The translations under genes and the position numbers were made by a program. The notes under the pieces were generated by a model that saw nothing but the letters and a program-made list of their open reading frames with translations, did no database searches and was not told the DNA's origin. A stretch of 64,000 nucleotides of DNA from Synergistaceae bacterium (lineage in GTDB: Bacteria; Synergistota; Synergistia; Synergistales; Synergistaceae): contig JAISZL010000098.1 in NCBI GenBank assembly GCA_031269245.1, positions 41,794-105,793 of the forward strand, in the 5' to 3' direction. Below, piece by piece: positions 15,230 to 57,282 of this stretch (position 1 is its first letter; every line of letters begins with the position of its first letter).

Positions 15230-16771
15230 TCAAATTCCCGCGATCTCCGCTATCAGCTCGAGGTCCAGTTCGCGCTCCATCTGGTCGGCCAGGTCGTCGA
15301 GCGCCATGTCGACGGACTTCCGATAGTCGAGCTTCGCCGCGCCGCGCCCTTCGCCTCCCCTGAACATCGCTAGGAACTTCGCGCGGTACGAGTCGCTAGT
15401 GAAAAGCCCGTGGATGTAGCAGCCTCGCACCAAGCCGTCCTCACGGACGGCGCCCTCCGGGATTCCATCCAAAACCACCATAGGGCGCTCCCGCTCCGGT
15501 CCCTCCGTCATGCCCATGTGTATCTCGTAGCCCGAGACGCGGCAGCCATCCGGCGTGTCCGCGGTAAATCGCCGCAGGGTCTTCTCGCGCGACATGACCG
15601 TCCTCACGTCAAGCAGCCCAAGGCCGCGCGTCGTCGCCGGCTCAGGGTTCTCCACGGCGTCGGGGTCGGAAATCTCGCTCCCCAGCATCTGATAGCCGCC
15701 GCATATGCCTACAACCATGCCGCCCCTGTGAATGTGCGCCGCGATGTCCGCGTCCCAGCCCTGCCGTCTCAAGTGCTGGAGGTCCGCTATCGTGGACTTA
15801 GTGCCAGGTATTATTATGAGATCACCATCGCCCGGCACGGGGTCGCCCGGCTTGACGAATGACAGCCTCACGTCCTCCTCCGCCGCGAGCGGATCGAAGT
15901 CGTCGAAGTTGGATATGCGCTGCAATCCGAGGACATATACCCTGATCCTCCTGGCGCCGCCCGCGTCACCCGGCGTCGCTCTTCCGAGTGCCATTGAGTC
16001 CTCCGCCGGGAACTTCGCCGCTCCCTCGAACCACCGCAGGATGCCCGCGCATGGCAGTCCAGTATGCCGGCCTATTATATCTATCGCGGGGGTCAATATC
16101 TCCCGGTCCCCCCTGAATTTGTTCATCATATACCCGCGAAGCAGAGGCCGCTCCGAATCCAGCAGAAGGCAGTGCGAGCCGATGACCGCGGCCAGCGCCC
16201 CCCCCCTGTCGATATCGGCGGCCAGGACGACCGGGACGCCGGCCTCAACGGCGAAGCCCATGTTCGATATATCGCCGTCACGCAGGTTGACCTCCGCTAT
16301 ACTCCCGGCGCCCTCGACGAACACGATATCCGCCTGGGCGCAGAGCCTGCGGAAGCTGTCCATGACGTCCGGCATCAGCTTGTACCTGTACTGGATGTAG
16401 TCCCGCGCGCTCATCGTGGCGCGGACATGCCCCTGGACCACGACCTGGCTCCCGTGGTCGGTCTCCGGCTTCAAGAGCACCGGGTTCATGTCGGAGACCG
16501 GCTCGACGCCGCACGCCACAGCCTGCAGCGCCTGAGCGCGGCCTATCTCCCCGCCGTCTGTGGTGATGGCGGCGTTGTTCGACATATTCTGCGGCTTGAA
16601 CGGCATGACTCGCATCCCTCGCCTGGAGAATATCCGGCAGAGCCCGGCGACGATCAGCGACTTCCCGGCGTCGGAGGCGGTGCCCTGTATCATGAGGGAC
16701 GGCGTTCCGGCGGATCTCACAGCTCCATCTGATTTTACGGCAGCCTTGTCCACAGACATATCCTCTCCCAA
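15230..16771 (-). CDS. cobQ: Cobyric acid synthase (CobQ/CbiP)
   Basis: SLMIQGTASDAGKSLIVAGLCRIF, FKPQNMSNN, GIDRGGALAAVIGS-type region, GTKSTIADL, GICGGYQMLG. Confidence 0.93.
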   Translation of the reverse strand: MGEDMSVDKAAVKSDGAVRSAGTPSLMIQGTASDAGKSLIVAGLCRIFSRRGMRVMPFKPQNMSNNAAITTDGGEIGRAQALQAVACGVEPVSDMNPVLLKPETDHGSQVVVQGHVRATMSARDYIQYRYKLMPDVMDSFRRLCAQADIVFVEGAGSIAEVNLRDGDISNMGFAVEAGVPVVLAADIDRGGALAAVIGSHCLLLDSERPLLRGYMMNKFRGDREILTPAIDIIGRHTGLPCAGILRWFEGAAKFPAEDSMALGRATPGDAGGARRIRVYVLGLQRISNFDDFDPLAAEEDVRLSFVKPGDPVPGDGDLIIIPGTKSTIADLQHLRRQGWDADIAAHIHRGGMVVGICGGYQMLGSEISDPDAVENPEPATTRGLGLLDVRTVMSREKTLRRFTADTPDGCRVSGYEIHMGMTEGPERERPMVVLDGIPEGAVREDGLVRGCYIHGLFTSDSYRAKFLAMFRGGEGRGAAKLDYRKSVDMALDDLADQMERELDLELIAEIAGI

Positions 16772-40172: not shown

Positions 40173-41113
40173 CGGACGCGGGGCCGCCCCATTTTCTCCG
40201 CCATATCCTCCGCCACTTTCTCTAAAGTCGTTTCGGAAAAATCATACCACAATATCGGAGAAAATTGCCTGAACCACGTCATCTGTCTCCTGGAAAAAGC
40301 CTTGGTCGAGCGAACGTCGCCGGCCAGGGCCTCGTCCAACGTGATCTTCCCGTCCGCGTAATCGACGAGCTCCCGGTACCCGAAACCCCGCAAAGCGGGA
40401 AGATCCCGCGAGTAGCCGTTGTCGAGCAGCCACCGCACCTCCTCCGGATAGCCTGAGCGAAACTGCTCGCCAGCGCGGCGCTCTATCCTCTCGAACAGAG
40501 ATTCCCTCGGGGACATAACGCCGAAGTAGGCTATCCCGCGCTCACCTCCTATTTTTTTTTGCGCGGCGTACAGTTCCGTGGCGCTGCGTCCCGACAATTT
40601 GAAGATCTCGAGCGCGCGGACGATGCGAACCCTGTCGTTCGGGTGAATTCTGGCCGCGCTCTCCGGATCGGCGGCGGACAGCTCGCCGTGGAGCGAGCGG
40701 ACTCCTTCGATCTCCGCTGTCCGCTCCAGCTCGCGCCTCAGCCGCTCGTCGCGCGGGAGCGATTCGGAGAGCAAACCGCCCTCCAGGGCTTTGAAGTACA
40801 TAGGGGTTCCTCCGGCCAGGATGGGGACCCTCCCTCGGGACTCGATGCGCCGCGCCGCGGAGAGAGCGCGCTGGACGAAGTCCGCCGCTGTGAATATCTC
40901 GTCGGGGTCGGCCACGTCGATCAGGTGGTGAGGGACGGTACTCCTCTTCTCGCGCGAGATCTTGTCAGTTCCCACGTCGAGATACCTGTAAACCTGCCTC
41001 GAATCCACCGAGATGATCTCTCCCTTTATCATCCGAGCCAGCTCGAACGCCGCGCGGGTCTTCCCAGCCGCGGTTGGACCGACTATGGCGTAAAGCGGCG
41101 GCTCGCGCGTCAT
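40169..41113 (-). CDS. miaA: tRNA dimethylallyltransferase
   Basis: IVGPTAAGKTRAAFELA, SVDSRQVYRYLDVGTDK, GGTPMYFKALEGGL, RQMTWFRQ; start ATGA overlaps mutL stop. Confidence 0.95.
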   Translation of the reverse strand: MTREPPLYAIVGPTAAGKTRAAFELARMIKGEIISVDSRQVYRYLDVGTDKISREKRSTVPHHLIDVADPDEIFTAADFVQRALSAARRIESRGRVPILAGGTPMYFKALEGGLLSESLPRDERLRRELERTAEIEGVRSLHGELSAADPESAARIHPNDRVRIVRALEIFKLSGRSATELYAAQKKIGGERGIAYFGVMSPRESLFERIERRAGEQFRSGYPEEVRWLLDNGYSRDLPALRGFGYRELVDYADGKITLDEALAGDVRSTKAFSRRQMTWFRQFSPILWYDFSETTLEKVAEDMAEKMGRPRVR

Positions 41114-49850: not shown

Positions 49851-51989
49851 TCAATGCCCCGGCTCGGCATCGCGGAGGGACGGGGCGCGCGCCTCCTCCG
49901 GTTTTTGATCGCCCCGCGCGGCCTGTTCGGGCTCCTTCCTCTCCTCCTGTTTCGGCAGGGGCTTCACCTCGCGCGTATGGTACATGGACATCAGCACGTC
50001 GACCATAGCCGTCCTGATGGAGTTCAGGTCCTTTAAGGTGAAGTCCACGTCCACAAATTGGCCTGTCATGATCTTTGAGTTGATGACGTCCTCGACAAGT
50101 TTGTCCAGTTCGGGTCTGCCCGCCAACGGATCCTTCAGCCCCTTCAGCGCGGCCTCCACCGAGTCCGCCAGCATCAAAAGCGCCGTCTCGGGGTGCTGCG
50201 GTGTGGGGCCTGGATAGCAGAAGTCCGCCTTGTCGACGTCTCCCCCGCCCTCCTCCTCTCCCGCGGCAAGCGCCTTCTTGTAAAAGTAGGTCATGCATGT
50301 CCTTCCGTGGTGCTCCGCGATGAAATCCTTTATAGCCCTCGGAAGGCGATATTCGTCAGCCAGCTTCAGGCCGTCGGTCACGTGGCTCTTGATCATCTTG
50401 GCGGACTCGAAGGGGGTTATTCTGTCGTGGATGTTGTTGCCGAACGACTGGTTCTCCACGAAATAATGCGGCCGCTTGAGCTTGCCTATGTCGTGATAGT
50501 ACGCCCCGGTCTTGATCAGAAGGCCGTTCATCCCCAGCCGATCCGCCACCGCCTCCGCCAAGGTGCCCACCGTTACGGTGTGGTGGTACGTCCCCGGCGC
50601 CTCCAGCTGCAGACGTTTCATGAGCGGCTGAGACTGATGGCTCAGCTCGAGCAACCTCAAGGGCGAGATTATGTCGAAAATCGCCTCCCAGAGCGGGATG
50701 ACCGCGACGACGAGGCTACTCCACAGCGCGCAGAGGAGAAGGTACGTCCCCACCAGCTCCCATGAGACCGCCAGCCCCAGTCCCCACCTCACGAAGAGCG
50801 ACGCGCACGTCAGGGAGAGACCAAGGCTGAATATGTTCCTCCAGATCATGATGCGGCTCGATGCCTCCCGCATGAATATGAAGCTCGCTCCGACCGCGAC
50901 CACGCAGAGTATGAAGCCGACGGATATCATAGAGGTCATGCCCTGGAACGCGAGAAGATAGCCTATGATCCCGCCGCCCAGCGCGATCTGGAACGCGAAG
51001 GCCGGCTGCAGGGTCAGAAATATCCAGCCGGTCATGGCGAGCACCGAGAGGGAGTCCACGTCCCACTTGCCGAACCACGCCTGAACGACCCAGTCTATCA
51101 GGAGCAGCAGCGTTATATACACCCACTCGCCGTTGGACGGAGGGCTCTCCTGCTTGCCCCCCAGCCACGTGACCCAGAACGACCAAGCGAACGTCGATAT
51201 GACGACGAAGCTCATGTACTTCCACGGAACATTGGCGCCTGAATACCCCTGCTCGCGGAGCAGTGCCGCTATGTCGGGGGTGACGAGCTGTCCCTTCTGA
51301 ACCAGGATGCCCCCGACGCGTATGTCGGTGGGCGCCGACGTGACGCGCGAGCTGACGTCCTCGCGCAGGCGCTCGGCCATCTCGGCGTCGTCCGCCACCG
51401 TCGGCAGCAGCAGCGCGTCGAGCAGCTGAAAAACGACGTTTTTATTCGCCTGAGGCATCTCGGCGTACCTGAGATGGTCCCATATCATTGCCGCCTGCTC
51501 CGACTTGCTGGCGAACCGATCGTAATTTTTCTCCGCTATGTCGACGGCCGCGCCGATAACCTGAGTGCGGTCGGCCTCCGGAAGCCCCCTTATCACCGAC
51601 GCCAGCTCGGGGGGAGCGAAGTCGAGGCTGCCGTCGTTCTTCAGAGCGGATATCCTCTGTACCACTAATTGCGTCAGCCCGTAGTTCCTGACCCTCACGT
51701 TGACTATTTGGTCGGCGGCCATGCTACGCAGCTCGTTGGTCGCGGCCTTGTCCGCGAATCGAATGGAACTCCTGGCGATGTACGTCCTCGGGGCGGGATA
51801 CCCGGCCATGTAGCTCTCGCCAAGGTCCACGAAATACCACCTCAGCAACACTATCAAACCGGCACTCACAACCAGCACCAGCCTGAAAAGGCTGAGGAAA
51901 ACGACCGGCGCTCCGTCGGAGGGCCTGCCGGCGCCCAGCATGAGCAATTGGAAGAGCCTACGATACGAGTGTCTGTGAAGCTCCGCCAT
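49851..51989 (-). CDS. 7TM-HD family phosphohydrolase (PgpH-like c-di-AMP phosphodiesterase)
   Basis: N-terminal extracytoplasmic domain, multi-TM block, HD domain HHTVTVGTLAEAVADRLGMNGLLIKTGAYYHDIGKLKRPHYF. Confidence 0.88.
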   Translation of the reverse strand: MAELHRHSYRRLFQLLMLGAGRPSDGAPVVFLSLFRLVLVVSAGLIVLLRWYFVDLGESYMAGYPAPRTYIARSSIRFADKAATNELRSMAADQIVNVRVRNYGLTQLVVQRISALKNDGSLDFAPPELASVIRGLPEADRTQVIGAAVDIAEKNYDRFASKSEQAAMIWDHLRYAEMPQANKNVVFQLLDALLLPTVADDAEMAERLREDVSSRVTSAPTDIRVGGILVQKGQLVTPDIAALLREQGYSGANVPWKYMSFVVISTFAWSFWVTWLGGKQESPPSNGEWVYITLLLLIDWVVQAWFGKWDVDSLSVLAMTGWIFLTLQPAFAFQIALGGGIIGYLLAFQGMTSMISVGFILCVVAVGASFIFMREASSRIMIWRNIFSLGLSLTCASLFVRWGLGLAVSWELVGTYLLLCALWSSLVVAVIPLWEAIFDIISPLRLLELSHQSQPLMKRLQLEAPGTYHHTVTVGTLAEAVADRLGMNGLLIKTGAYYHDIGKLKRPHYFVENQSFGNNIHDRITPFESAKMIKSHVTDGLKLADEYRLPRAIKDFIAEHHGRTCMTYFYKKALAAGEEEGGGDVDKADFCYPGPTPQHPETALLMLADSVEAALKGLKDPLAGRPELDKLVEDVINSKIMTGQFVDVDFTLKDLNSIRTAMVDVLMSMYHTREVKPLPKQEERKEPEQAARGDQKPEEARAPSLRDAEPGH

Positions 51990-52962
51990 TGCCCTCATAC
52001 CCGGCGTATTTATCGCGTTTCTCGAAGGACTCGTAGGCCGCTACTATCTTCTGCACAATATCGTGCCTCACCACGTCGTAATTTGTGAGATCGCAAAAGG
52101 CGATCCCCGGAATCCCCTCCAAAATGCCGCCTATTGAGCGAAGCCCGGACTCCTTGCTGCCGGGCAGATCGACCTGGGTGATGTCGCCCGTGACCACCGC
52201 CTTCGATCCAAGGCCGAGCCGCGTCAGAAACATCTTCATCTGCTCGCGGGTCGTGTTCTGGGCCTCGTCCAATATTATGAAACTGCTGCTCAACGTGCGC
52301 CCCCTCATGTACGCCAGCGGGGCGATCTCTATGATGCCCTTCTCAACGTACCTCGTGAAGCGGTCTGTCGGCAGCAAGTCGTAAAAAGCATCGTGCAGGG
52401 GCCTTATGTACGGCTCTATCTTCTCCAGCATGTCGCCCGGGAGATACCCGAGCCGCTCCCCGGCCTCAACCACGGGGCGAACAAGCACGATCCTGTTTAT
52501 GATGGAGGCATTGAGCGCCGCCACCGCCTTGGCCACCGCGAGATACGTCTTACCGGTACCCGCGGGCCCTATCGCGAACACCACGTCATTGCAGTCGATG
52601 GCGTCCACGTACTCTCTCTGCCCCTGGGTGTACGGCCGCACCTGCTTCCCTCTGTTCGTCACGCAAATCGTGCGATCAAGCAGGGCGATCAGGTCCGGCC
52701 TCCTCCCGTCCGCCAGCATGTCCAGGGCGTATCGTATCTCGACGCCCGACGGTCTGGCGCCCCGCGCCGTCATTTCGGCGAACTGCCCTATGAGATCCGT
52801 CAGGCCCTCCGCCATCCCGGAGCCGTCGTCAGGTATGTGAACATCCGCGCCCCTCGCCGTTGCGCGGAGGCCAAGCCTGTCCTCTATGGCCGACAGGATC
52901 TCGTCCCTCGCGCCGAGCACCCTCGACAGGATCTCCTCGGACGGGAGGGTCACGGTCCGCAT
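51958..52962 (-). CDS. phoH: PhoH-family ATPase
   Basis: VFAIGPAGTGKTYLAVAKAVAAL, RPVVEAGERLGYLPGDMLEKIEPYIRPLHDA, ILDEAQNTTREQMKMFLTRLGLGSKAVVTGDITQVDLP. Confidence 0.95.
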   Translation of the reverse strand: MRTVTLPSEEILSRVLGARDEILSAIEDRLGLRATARGADVHIPDDGSGMAEGLTDLIGQFAEMTARGARPSGVEIRYALDMLADGRRPDLIALLDRTICVTNRGKQVRPYTQGQREYVDAIDCNDVVFAIGPAGTGKTYLAVAKAVAALNASIINRIVLVRPVVEAGERLGYLPGDMLEKIEPYIRPLHDAFYDLLPTDRFTRYVEKGIIEIAPLAYMRGRTLSSSFIILDEAQNTTREQMKMFLTRLGLGSKAVVTGDITQVDLPGSKESGLRSIGGILEGIPGIAFCDLTNYDVVRHDIVQKIVAAYESFEKRDKYAGYEGNGGASQTLVS

Positions 52963-52976
52963 GGCGCTCACGGCGC

Positions 52977-53213
52977 CTATGCCCGCACGACCTCTTTGAC
53001 CTCCGGGACCCTGCGCTGAACGACTCCTTCGACCATGTTGCGTATGGTGGCGGCGGCCCCTGGACAGCCAGTGCAAAGGCCGGTAAGCTGAACCTTGAGG
53101 ACTCCGTTCGTCTCGTCAAAACCCAAGAACTCTATGCCTCCACCGTGGGACTCGATAATCGGGCGCACGTCCGACTCCAAAACTCCGACGATTCTCTCAG
53201 CTACCTCCGACAT
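52977..53213 (-). CDS. Possible separately initiated NifU-domain protein (internal start)
   Basis: Minus strand AAGGAGGGTAATTGAAATGTCGGAG: strong Shine-Dalgarno and ATG directly before the NifU domain. Confidence 0.55.
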   Translation of the reverse strand: MSEVAERIVGVLESDVRPIIESHGGGIEFLGFDETNGVLKVQLTGLCTGCPGAAATIRNMVEGVVQRRVPEVKEVVRA

Positions 53214-54062
53214 TTCAATTACCCTCCTTGCGGTTATTTTACCTGACTTTTTTTTGGCGATTTGCCACATCTCCTCCAACTCACGAAGAGACATGGACTC
53301 CATCTCGATGCCGCTATCCCTTGCCATCGACTCCATCTCCCTGAATCGACTCGAGAACTTGGCGTTGGCCTCTTGGAGGGCGCTCTCCGGGTCGATGCCG
53401 AGGTGACGCGCTAAATTTGCCAGCGCGAAGAGCATATCGCCGAGCTCCTCCCTCGACGCACCGGCGTCGAGCCGGTCTATCTCGACCCTCAGCTCGTCCA
53501 GTTCCTCGAGTGCCTTGCTCCTCACCGAAGCTATGTCGCCCCTCTTCCAGTCGAAACCCTTCTTGGCCGCGCGTTCGCTCATCCTGAGCGCGCGCAGCAA
53601 CGCAGGCAGGCCGCGAGGTATGCCGGCCATGGCGGAGCTGTCGGCATCCCGGCCCCTCCTCTCGCCGGCCTTTATCGTCTCCCAGTTGCGGCTGACCTCG
53701 TCCGCGTCACGCACCGTCACGCCGCCGAACACGTGCGGGTGCCTTTTGACCAGCTTGCGGCAGATGGCCTGGCAGACGTCCTCTATGCCGAACATGCTCC
53801 GCTCGGACGCTATCTGCGACACGAAAACCACCTGCAGCAGCACGTCCCCGCACTCCTCCATGATGTCCCTCGGATCTCCGCCCTCTATGGCCTCGACAAG
53901 CTCGTGCGCCTCCTCAAGGATATATCTCCTCAAGGTTTCGAGCGTCTGCTCCGCATCCCACGGGCATCCACCCGGCGCGCGAAGCCTCCTCATTATATCG
54001 GTCAGGCATCTGAAATCACCGGGCCCGAACTCATCCAACGCGATTGCTCCTCTCATGCTCAT
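52977..54062 (-). CDS. mazG: MazG nucleotide pyrophosphohydrolase in frame with a NifU C-terminal (Fe-S scaffold) domain
   Basis: MazG: GGCPWDAEQTLETLRRYILEEAHELVEAIE, tandem EELGDMLFALANLARHLGID; NifU: GGGIEFLGFDETNGVLKVQLTGLCTGCPGAAATIRNMVEGVVQRRVPEVKEV. Confidence 0.9.
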   Translation of the reverse strand: MSMRGAIALDEFGPGDFRCLTDIMRRLRAPGGCPWDAEQTLETLRRYILEEAHELVEAIEGGDPRDIMEECGDVLLQVVFVSQIASERSMFGIEDVCQAICRKLVKRHPHVFGGVTVRDADEVSRNWETIKAGERRGRDADSSAMAGIPRGLPALLRALRMSERAAKKGFDWKRGDIASVRSKALEELDELRVEIDRLDAGASREELGDMLFALANLARHLGIDPESALQEANAKFSSRFREMESMARDSGIEMESMSLRELEEMWQIAKKKSGKITARRVIEMSEVAERIVGVLESDVRPIIESHGGGIEFLGFDETNGVLKVQLTGLCTGCPGAAATIRNMVEGVVQRRVPEVKEVVRA

Positions 54063-54090: not shown

Positions 54091-57000
54091 TTATTGGGTT
54101 TTCCCGGCGAGAGGAGATTTTTTGCTTGTTTTGCGCACATCACGCAAGAACAGAATAAATCCGCCGAGGGTGTCCATACCGCCGGAACTTCTGAAGCCGT
54201 CCGCCCTCCTGAACCACCCGCGCGGCGCGGGCTCCTCCGTCAGCGGCGCCCGCGGGCCGCACCGGACGACGGTCTCGTCAGAGCCGCACAACACGTCTAG
54301 TATGCCGAAGTCAGGGCCCATTATCCTCATCCTCGACACGTCGAATAAAAACTCGAGCGGGCGCGGCATGGGGCCGAAGCGATCCACGGTCTCGTCATGG
54401 AGGGAGTCGAGCGCGTCCTCCTCCTGAACCCACAGCAGTTTCCTGTAGAGCGCTATCCGAAGGCTCTCGTGAGGGAGATAGTCGCGCGGGATCGCGGATG
54501 GCACCCCGACCTCGACCCGGGTTCGCTCGCGCGCGTCGCCCTTCGCCCTTCTGATCGCCTCCTCCAGGAGATCGCAGTAGCGTTCGAAGCCCACCCTGCC
54601 GAGATTGCCGTGCTGGGCCACGCCGACCAGCTCGCCCCCACCCCTTATCTCGAGGTCTTTTTTGGCGAGCTGGTACCCGGCACCGAACTCGCCCAGGGAC
54701 GCGATGGCATCCATGCGCTCCACCGCCTCCCTCGTCAGCGCCACACCCTCCGGGTGCAGGAAGAGGGCGAATGCCTGCTCGTCGCGGCGGCCCACCCTCC
54801 CCCTGAGCTGGTGCATCTGCGCGAGGCCCAAGTCCTGCGCGTCGCTCACTATCAGGGTATTGGCCCTCGGTATGTCCAGCCCGCTCTCGACTATCGTGGT
54901 GCAGACCAGGATGTCAGTCTCCCCTCCGGCAAATTCGTCCATCGCGTTTTTTAAATCCTTCTCGGGCATCTGTCCGTGTGCCACGGCAACCGCGAGCTTC
55001 GGGAAGAGCCGCCTCACCATCATTGCCTCCCTGTCGATGCTCCGCACCCTGTTGTGCACGTAAAACACCTGGCCTCCCCGCGCGCGCTCCCTCAGCACCG
55101 CGCTCTTGACCAGCGGCTCGGACCACGCCCCAACGGCGGTTATGACGGGCAGGCGTTTCCTCGGCGGGGTTTCGAGCAGAGAGAGGTCCCTCAGACCGGA
55201 GAGCGACATGTGCAGGGACCTGGGTATAGGGGTGGCCGACAGCATGAGCGCGTCCACCGACGGATAGGCGCTCTTGAGGCGCTCCTTGTGCATCACGCCG
55301 AACCTGTGCTCCTCGTCTATTATGACGAGCCCCAGCGATTTGAAGGCTATGTCGGCGCCCAGCATCCTGTGGGTCCCGACCAGGATGTCCACCCTGCCGG
55401 ACGCCGCATCCTCGATTATCTTCCTTTGTTTCGTCGGGAGGACGAAGCGGGAGACGACCTCCACCCTGACTCCGAACTGGTCGAAGCGCGCGCTCCACGT
55501 CTCGAAGTGCTGCTGGGCCAGAAGAGTCGTCGGCGCCATCAGCGCGACCTGCAGCCCCTCGAATACGCACTTCGCTGCGGCCCTCATGGCGACCTCTGTC
55601 TTGCCGAAGCCGACATCCCCTATCAACAGCCTGTCCATGGGGAAGGGACGCTTCATGTCGGCACTCACCTCGCCGATAGCCCTGAGCTGGTCCTCCGTCT
55701 CGCGATACGGAAACGTCCTCTCGAACTCCGCCTCCTGCTCCGGGTCGCCGGTGAACTGGTGCCCCGGCGTCATCTCACGCTTTGCGTAGACATCCATGAG
55801 ATAGCTCGCGGCCAACTCCGCCTGCTCGCGCGCACGCGCGGTCATCTTCTTCCAGTGCCCGCCCCTCAGGTTGTCCGCCGCTGGCTCCACCCCGGGATAC
55901 GTCATGTAGGGGGATATCTTGTGGAAGTGCATCACGGGAATCTTCAGCCTGCGCTCCTCGGCGTACTCCAAAACCAAGTACTCCTGAACTCCGTCCGGGC
56001 TCTCGATCTGCTCGGATCCCATGAACCTGGCCACCCCGTAGTCCTCGTGCACGACCCACTGGCCCGGCATCAGGCGATCCCCCCAGTCGAGCGGGGCCGC
56101 CCTCTCCTTGGACGAGCCAGAGAGTGAAAGACCGGACAGCTCGAGGTCACCGATCACCGCAACCCCTGACGAGGGGTCGTAAAAACCCTCCGACACGGCG
56201 CCCTCCGCCGCGATATAGCCCCTCTCGGCGGCCCATTTTCTGAAGTGCCCGGCCTGAGAGACGACGCAAATCGACACATTTTTGGAGGACAGGCCGTCGC
56301 AGTAGGCCTCCAAATCCCTCCGCCTGCCCCGAAAATTCGGCAGCCCGATTATCCCGGTCCTGCGGTCGGCTCTCGCTATCCCGGAGGATATGCGGAGCCT
56401 AGGATAAAGCCCCAGCATGGCCTCCACTCCGCGCCACTCAAGCCGTTCGTTCCCCTCCAATTCCCGCTCCACGCCAGCCCTGAGCCATGAGTAGTTATCC
56501 GCCGAGTTCTCCAGCTCCGCAGGCTCTATGAGGAGGATGTGCATGTCGGCGGGGAAAAAAGCGTCGAGCGCCGCCGAGCGCCGCGAGGAGAGCGCCCTTA
56601 TATCGCGGCGGCTAAAGCTCCTTATGCTGCGCTGCGTGTCCGTGGCAAAGCACCTAATGCTGTCGATCTCCTCGTCGAAGAACTCCACCCTTATCGGATA
56701 AGCGTCCCTTGGGTCGAAGAAGTCCACGATGCCGCCGCGATGTGTGAACTGCCCCGGCGACCAGACTATATCGACCCTCTCGTAACCATGCCCCGCCAGC
56801 CAGTCTATCAGCCGGGCACGTCCCGTCTCGTGTCCCCTCTCGAGGGCTAAAACGTCGCCCCCTATCGAGAAGGGGCCCATCAAAGCCCCGGGAGTCGCCA
56901 GCATGATGCCGGAGGCATCGGCCCAACGGTACATCGTCTCCCCCCTACCGGCCTTCTGTGCCTCGAACATCGTGGGGGCGTCCTCGTAAGACGCTATTGC

Positions 57001-57282
57001 TATCTCCTCCAGCATCGACACGGCCGGCAGGCCCGACAGCAGGCGGATGGCCTCCGCGTCCGACTGAAAATCGCGGGCCAGCCTGGAGTTGGGCAGAACC
57101 ACGAGCAAAGGCCGCCGGAATCCGCGGCATATCCACGGTCTGGCGGCCCCTGCGGCCGACAGATGAATCAAGCTGTTCCTCCTCCATTCGCCGGCATCCA
57201 GTCGTTCCAAACTATTAGGCGTATAGGGCGCGCAGGGCGCGTTTAACGTGCCCTGCGCCGTCCTGCCCGCATCACTTTTCAC
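54091..57282 (-). CDS. mfd: Transcription-repair coupling factor Mfd
   Basis: CarD-like VVHEDYGVARFMG, helicase motifs DRLLIGDVGFGKTEVAMRAA, IIDEEHRFGV, LSATPIPRSLHMSLSGLRDLS, QLRGRVGRRDEQAFA. Confidence 0.95.
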   Translation of the reverse strand: MKSDAGRTAQGTLNAPCAPYTPNSLERLDAGEWRRNSLIHLSAAGAARPWICRGFRRPLLVVLPNSRLARDFQSDAEAIRLLSGLPAVSMLEEIAIASYEDAPTMFEAQKAGRGETMYRWADASGIMLATPGALMGPFSIGGDVLALERGHETGRARLIDWLAGHGYERVDIVWSPGQFTHRGGIVDFFDPRDAYPIRVEFFDEEIDSIRCFATDTQRSIRSFSRRDIRALSSRRSAALDAFFPADMHILLIEPAELENSADNYSWLRAGVERELEGNERLEWRGVEAMLGLYPRLRISSGIARADRRTGIIGLPNFRGRRRDLEAYCDGLSSKNVSICVVSQAGHFRKWAAERGYIAAEGAVSEGFYDPSSGVAVIGDLELSGLSLSGSSKERAAPLDWGDRLMPGQWVVHEDYGVARFMGSEQIESPDGVQEYLVLEYAEERRLKIPVMHFHKISPYMTYPGVEPAADNLRGGHWKKMTARAREQAELAASYLMDVYAKREMTPGHQFTGDPEQEAEFERTFPYRETEDQLRAIGEVSADMKRPFPMDRLLIGDVGFGKTEVAMRAAAKCVFEGLQVALMAPTTLLAQQHFETWSARFDQFGVRVEVVSRFVLPTKQRKIIEDAASGRVDILVGTHRMLGADIAFKSLGLVIIDEEHRFGVMHKERLKSAYPSVDALMLSATPIPRSLHMSLSGLRDLSLLETPPRKRLPVITAVGAWSEPLVKSAVLRERARGGQVFYVHNRVRSIDREAMMVRRLFPKLAVAVAHGQMPEKDLKNAMDEFAGGETDILVCTTIVESGLDIPRANTLIVSDAQDLGLAQMHQLRGRVGRRDEQAFALFLHPEGVALTREAVERMDAIASLGEFGAGYQLAKKDLEIRGGGELVGVAQHGNLGRVGFERYCDLLEEAIRRAKGDARERTRVEVGVPSAIPRDYLPHESLRIALYRKLLWVQEEDALDSLHDETVDRFGPMPRPLEFLFDVSRMRIMGPDFGILDVLCGSDETVVRCGPRAPLTEEPAPRGWFRRADGFRSSGGMDTLGGFILFLRDVRKTSKKSPLAGKTQ

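Follow-up and report, generated by a model that had tools for sequence, protein, structure and literature searches.

The heptamer A AAA AAG is the site of the −1 frameshift in Escherichia coli dnaX. Coding A runs are also known to act at the level of transcription: in Thermus thermophilus dnaX and in insertion sequence (IS) elements, transcriptional slippage on a run of nine As, beyond which the alternative frames soon stop, allows the tract to serve two products (PMC1088944). In E. coli and Buchnera, insertions made during transcription of A and T homopolymer runs increase exponentially as the runs lengthen (PMC5574713). In a large share of genomes, it is only at a length of nine that A/T runs show evidence of being selected against (PMC1088944). 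We compared with these systems a junction between a mazG and a nifU gene in a 64,000-nt stretch of a Synergistaceae assembly (the window, to whose numbering all coordinates refer). Its features, in the order of transcription, are as follows.

54091..57282, minus strand: mfd (transcription-repair coupling factor), the upstream neighbor, identified by its Pfam domains
53214..54062, minus strand: the portion of the fused frame that belongs to mazG, with the 11 residues after the tract counted in (Pfam PF03819; NCBIfam PRK09562/TIGR00444)
53248..53255, minus strand (T8 on the plus strand): A8 tract, read directly, forming codons AAA AAA AA(G) in the Lys-rich MazG tail
53222..53229, minus strand: Shine-Dalgarno (SD) region of nifU, AAGGAGGG, in which AGGAGG and the ATG are 9 nt apart, common to the closest relative (L032)
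52977..53213, minus strand: nifU, a 78-aa NifU/Nfu C-terminal domain protein with a CxxC motif (GLCTGCPG; Pfam PF01106, 2.9e-20)
51958..52962, minus strand: phoH-like gene, the downstream neighbor in the same direction (Pfam PF02562)

On the minus strand, the gene order is thus mfd, mazG, nifU, phoH, a 7TM-HD protein gene, and ybeY. A first-pass annotation had reported that MazG, read straight through eight As, runs into a NifU domain preceded by its own SD sequence and ATG and that one base fewer or more brings an early stop; each of these points agrees with the sequence. Direct reading of the minus strand at 53211-53258 gave GCC AAA AAA AAG TCA GGT AAA ATA ACC GCA AGG AGG GTA ATT GAA ATG, which matches the reported text exactly, with precisely eight As at 53248-53255 and AAGGAGG followed by the nifU ATG at 53213. 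A single frame, already open upstream of the mazG ATG at 54062, continues from that ATG across the NifU domain as far as a TAG at 52977, giving a protein of 361 aa, in which Pfam recovers MazG at residues 39 to 112 (3.7e-36) and NifU at residues 294 to 359 (2.2e-19). The first part scores above the curated cutoffs of the full-length MazG models (PRK09562, 306.5 bits versus 208; TIGR00444, 294.6 versus 148.3) and bears the NCBIfam name nucleoside triphosphate pyrophosphohydrolase. The NifU-like (Nfu) domain likewise exceeds its cutoff (PF01106, 72.6 bits versus 27), with CTGC present in the translation, and no other NifU-domain match was found in the assembly; MazG has one additional, weak match, on another contig. 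When the tract length was changed in silico from A6 to A10, only A8 joined the two genes, while A6, A7, A9, and A10 all ended MazG at a TAA after 273 to 276 aa, 20 to 25 nt short of the nifU start codon. The 2.34-Mb assembly contains a single copy of the 24-nt junction string. We consider it highly improbable that the A8 is a reversible phase switch, alternating by replication slippage between separate MazG and NifU proteins and the MazG-NifU fusion.

We compared this junction with 27 distinct mazG-nifU junctions from the genus and the family; the nearest named records to the window are Synergistaceae metagenome-assembled genomes (MAGs). The genes proved to be separate in all 27: mazG ends at a stop of its own, and nifU starts at its own ATG behind an SD-like stretch. 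Apart from one case of 293 nt, their spacing ranges from an overlap of about 38 nt to a gap of 54 nt. The frame of nifU relative to that of mazG is 0, 1, or 2, so that no frame relation is maintained. In these relatives, MazG stops after a conserved W-x-x-A-K tail that is rich in Lys but lacks a fixed A run; the A-rich codons at the end of MazG are accounted for by this Lys-rich tail. The longest A run at the junction is 3 to 7 nt, and its position varies, so a conserved A tract was rejected as a candidate. The window thus shares with its relatives the gene order, the type of SD and start before nifU, and the Lys-rich MazG end but, owing to the A8 length, lacks a stop in the mazG frame. When 188 genomes of the phylum were searched at the protein level, no second fused MazG-NifU frame appeared among the matches listed; weak-scoring matches are not among these, yet a fusion would rank near the top. 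A conserved long fusion lacking the A tract, raised beforehand as an observation that would count against slippage, was accordingly seen neither in the 27 junctions nor in the matches from the 188 genomes, and a conserved MazG-NifU fusion family was rejected, with no second case in the genus, in the family, or among the phylum matches listed. The same single occurrence weighs against an adaptive bifunctional MazG-NifU enzyme, as does the retention by nifU of its own SD and ATG; a search of the open-access literature, moreover, turned up no paper that treats MazG and NifU together with a fusion; that the frame is open and both domains are intact fits such an enzyme, to which we nevertheless give hardly any credence.

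The closest relative (L032/L007) has the junction GCA AAA GAG GAA AAA TAA followed by AAGGAGGGTAATTATAATG; after its GAG GAA AAA TAA it thus continues with AAGGAGGGTAATT and on to AATG, and the block from SD to start is common to it and the window. If the window is read as A7, its MazG would end CAG GTA AAA TAA, which resembles this GAG GAA AAA TAA. The comparison suggests that the ancestral frame was of the A7 type and underwent a +1 change later, as judged from an alignment of the two stops that is short and ambiguous. Over 52977-54062, this relative is 94% identical to the window in NifU and 73% identical in the adjoining MazG, against roughly 80 and 70 in other relatives; the gap between the two values possibly reflects recombination or uneven constraint.

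From these comparisons, we consider it reasonably probable that the locus is a pair of ordinary neighbors within an operon, brought into one frame in a single lineage by the A8 length state, and that the joining is not programmed. The first-pass annotation had named two alternatives to slippage, a fusion arising recently through 1 nt and an indel error, and the comparison with relatives favors these. The A8 state is known from one assembly, from which a change in the DNA is not separable from an assembly indel or a mixture of strains. That the true tract is A7 or A9, with the genes separate as in the relatives and the A8 an assembly or sequencing artifact or a mixed-strain consensus, is in our view the less likely of these accounts but one to be taken seriously: the fusion is found in one draft assembly only (98 contigs) and nowhere else among the phylum matches listed, and one base restores the usual layout with its spacing of 20 to 25 nt. 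Against an artifact stands the behavior of other homopolymers in the window, where the statistics on runs inside genes were gathered. Frames remain whole across runs of 7 to 9 nt in cobQ (C9), an SDR gene (A8), a CNNM/CBS gene (A8), an isochorismatase-like gene (T7), an acyl-ACP ligase-like gene, and a dltB-like gene. Runs of this size are common and tolerated here and probably correctly assembled, and since these others are in frame, the tract lengths in the assembly look reliable. A generally poor homopolymer quality of the assembly was rejected because the other checked runs keep their frame, as was a suspected break of the isochorismatase-like gene at its T7, where the gene reads on in the same frame. 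Illumina sequencing, furthermore, seldom miscalls a run of eight As. The MAG names of the relatives resemble the naming of a termite-gut survey, and Illumina was the platform of one survey of this kind (PMC9137090), although the membership of the window in it is only supposed.

In the window, 4 A/T runs of at least 8 nt were observed versus about 0.55 expected under a dinucleotide model, and 161 overlapping 8-mer matches were counted genome-wide; A8 is therefore not exceptional in this genome. An A9 run on the coding strand, longer than the junction tract, lies 13 kb away within an intact miaA (40552-40560), whose profile match spans the run with the frame kept. The C9 run of cobQ, which encodes cobyric acid synthase and is likewise intact, is located at 16198-16206.

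The first-pass annotation had further proposed that slippage makes one locus yield three products, namely, MazG alone, the MazG-NifU fusion, and free NifU. In its strongest form, transcriptional slippage at the A8 or a −1 frameshift at A AAA AAG would set the ratio of MazG to MazG-NifU. The tract does resemble the T. thermophilus dnaX and IS tracts in being a coding A run after which the alternative frames soon stop, and both alternative frames do so at once; it differs in being A8, not conserved, and found in one genome only. It also contains A AAA AAG in frame, the same heptamer in the same phase as in E. coli dnaX. The window showed, however, no downstream stem like that of dnaX: in a pseudoknot-free fold of 151 nt, the RNA structure was not unusual (z = −0.77), with no strong stem just after the tract, so that a stimulatory structure for a dnaX-type −1 frameshift was rejected. 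The GGAGGAG lying about 17 nt upstream is part of conserved coding sequence. An A tract with a dual-product layout conserved among orthologs, as expected of programmed transcriptional slippage, was not found in the relatives, none of which conserves tract, frame, or fusion. A/T runs of 8 to 9 nt in other genes of the window lack such a layout. The exponential rise of insertions with homopolymer length speaks for some slippage here, and the published length dependence leads us to expect a little of it at A8, yielding normal-length MazG; the finding that selection against A/T runs shows only at nine in many genomes argues against a functional role. Such normal-length MazG would be a by-product and does not speak for a use of the tract. 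The three-product proposal is not supported by these comparisons, and we regard a functional slippage locus as improbable.

For the favored account of two ordinary genes joined by tract length, the most likely course of events is as follows. mazG, for an NTP pyrophosphohydrolase, and nifU, for a 78-aa Nfu-type Fe-S carrier domain, are codirectional operon genes, and a 1-nt change of tract length within the last Lys codons of mazG would join both frames. Most ribosomes on mazG would then read through to give the 361-aa MazG-NifU, while the strong SD and the ATG of nifU would still allow its independent initiation; both activities would thereby persist, leaving the change nearly neutral. If polymerase or ribosomes slipped now and then at the A8, this would restore only some normal-length MazG, since A6, A7, A9, and A10 all meet the TAA just before nifU. 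That nifU yields free NifU through its own SD and ATG is plausible, and NifU is probably still so produced, but this is simply where translation of the second gene began ancestrally. The locus would then be a small example of a one-base change in a Lys-codon A run fusing two operon genes at no obvious cost. It is a caution for annotators as well: an annotation pipeline would predict one protein of 361 aa and conceal where nifU, the one gene with a NifU domain detected in this assembly, begins.

Long frames containing mazG were also observed elsewhere. Within the same order, four genomes of one family (f7; G051, G059, G066, and G067) have their mazG match inside an open frame of about 820 to 836 codons, and a genome of another family (G054; f10) has it inside one of 1,321 codons; these are possibly further fusions involving mazG or just open frames that happen to be long.
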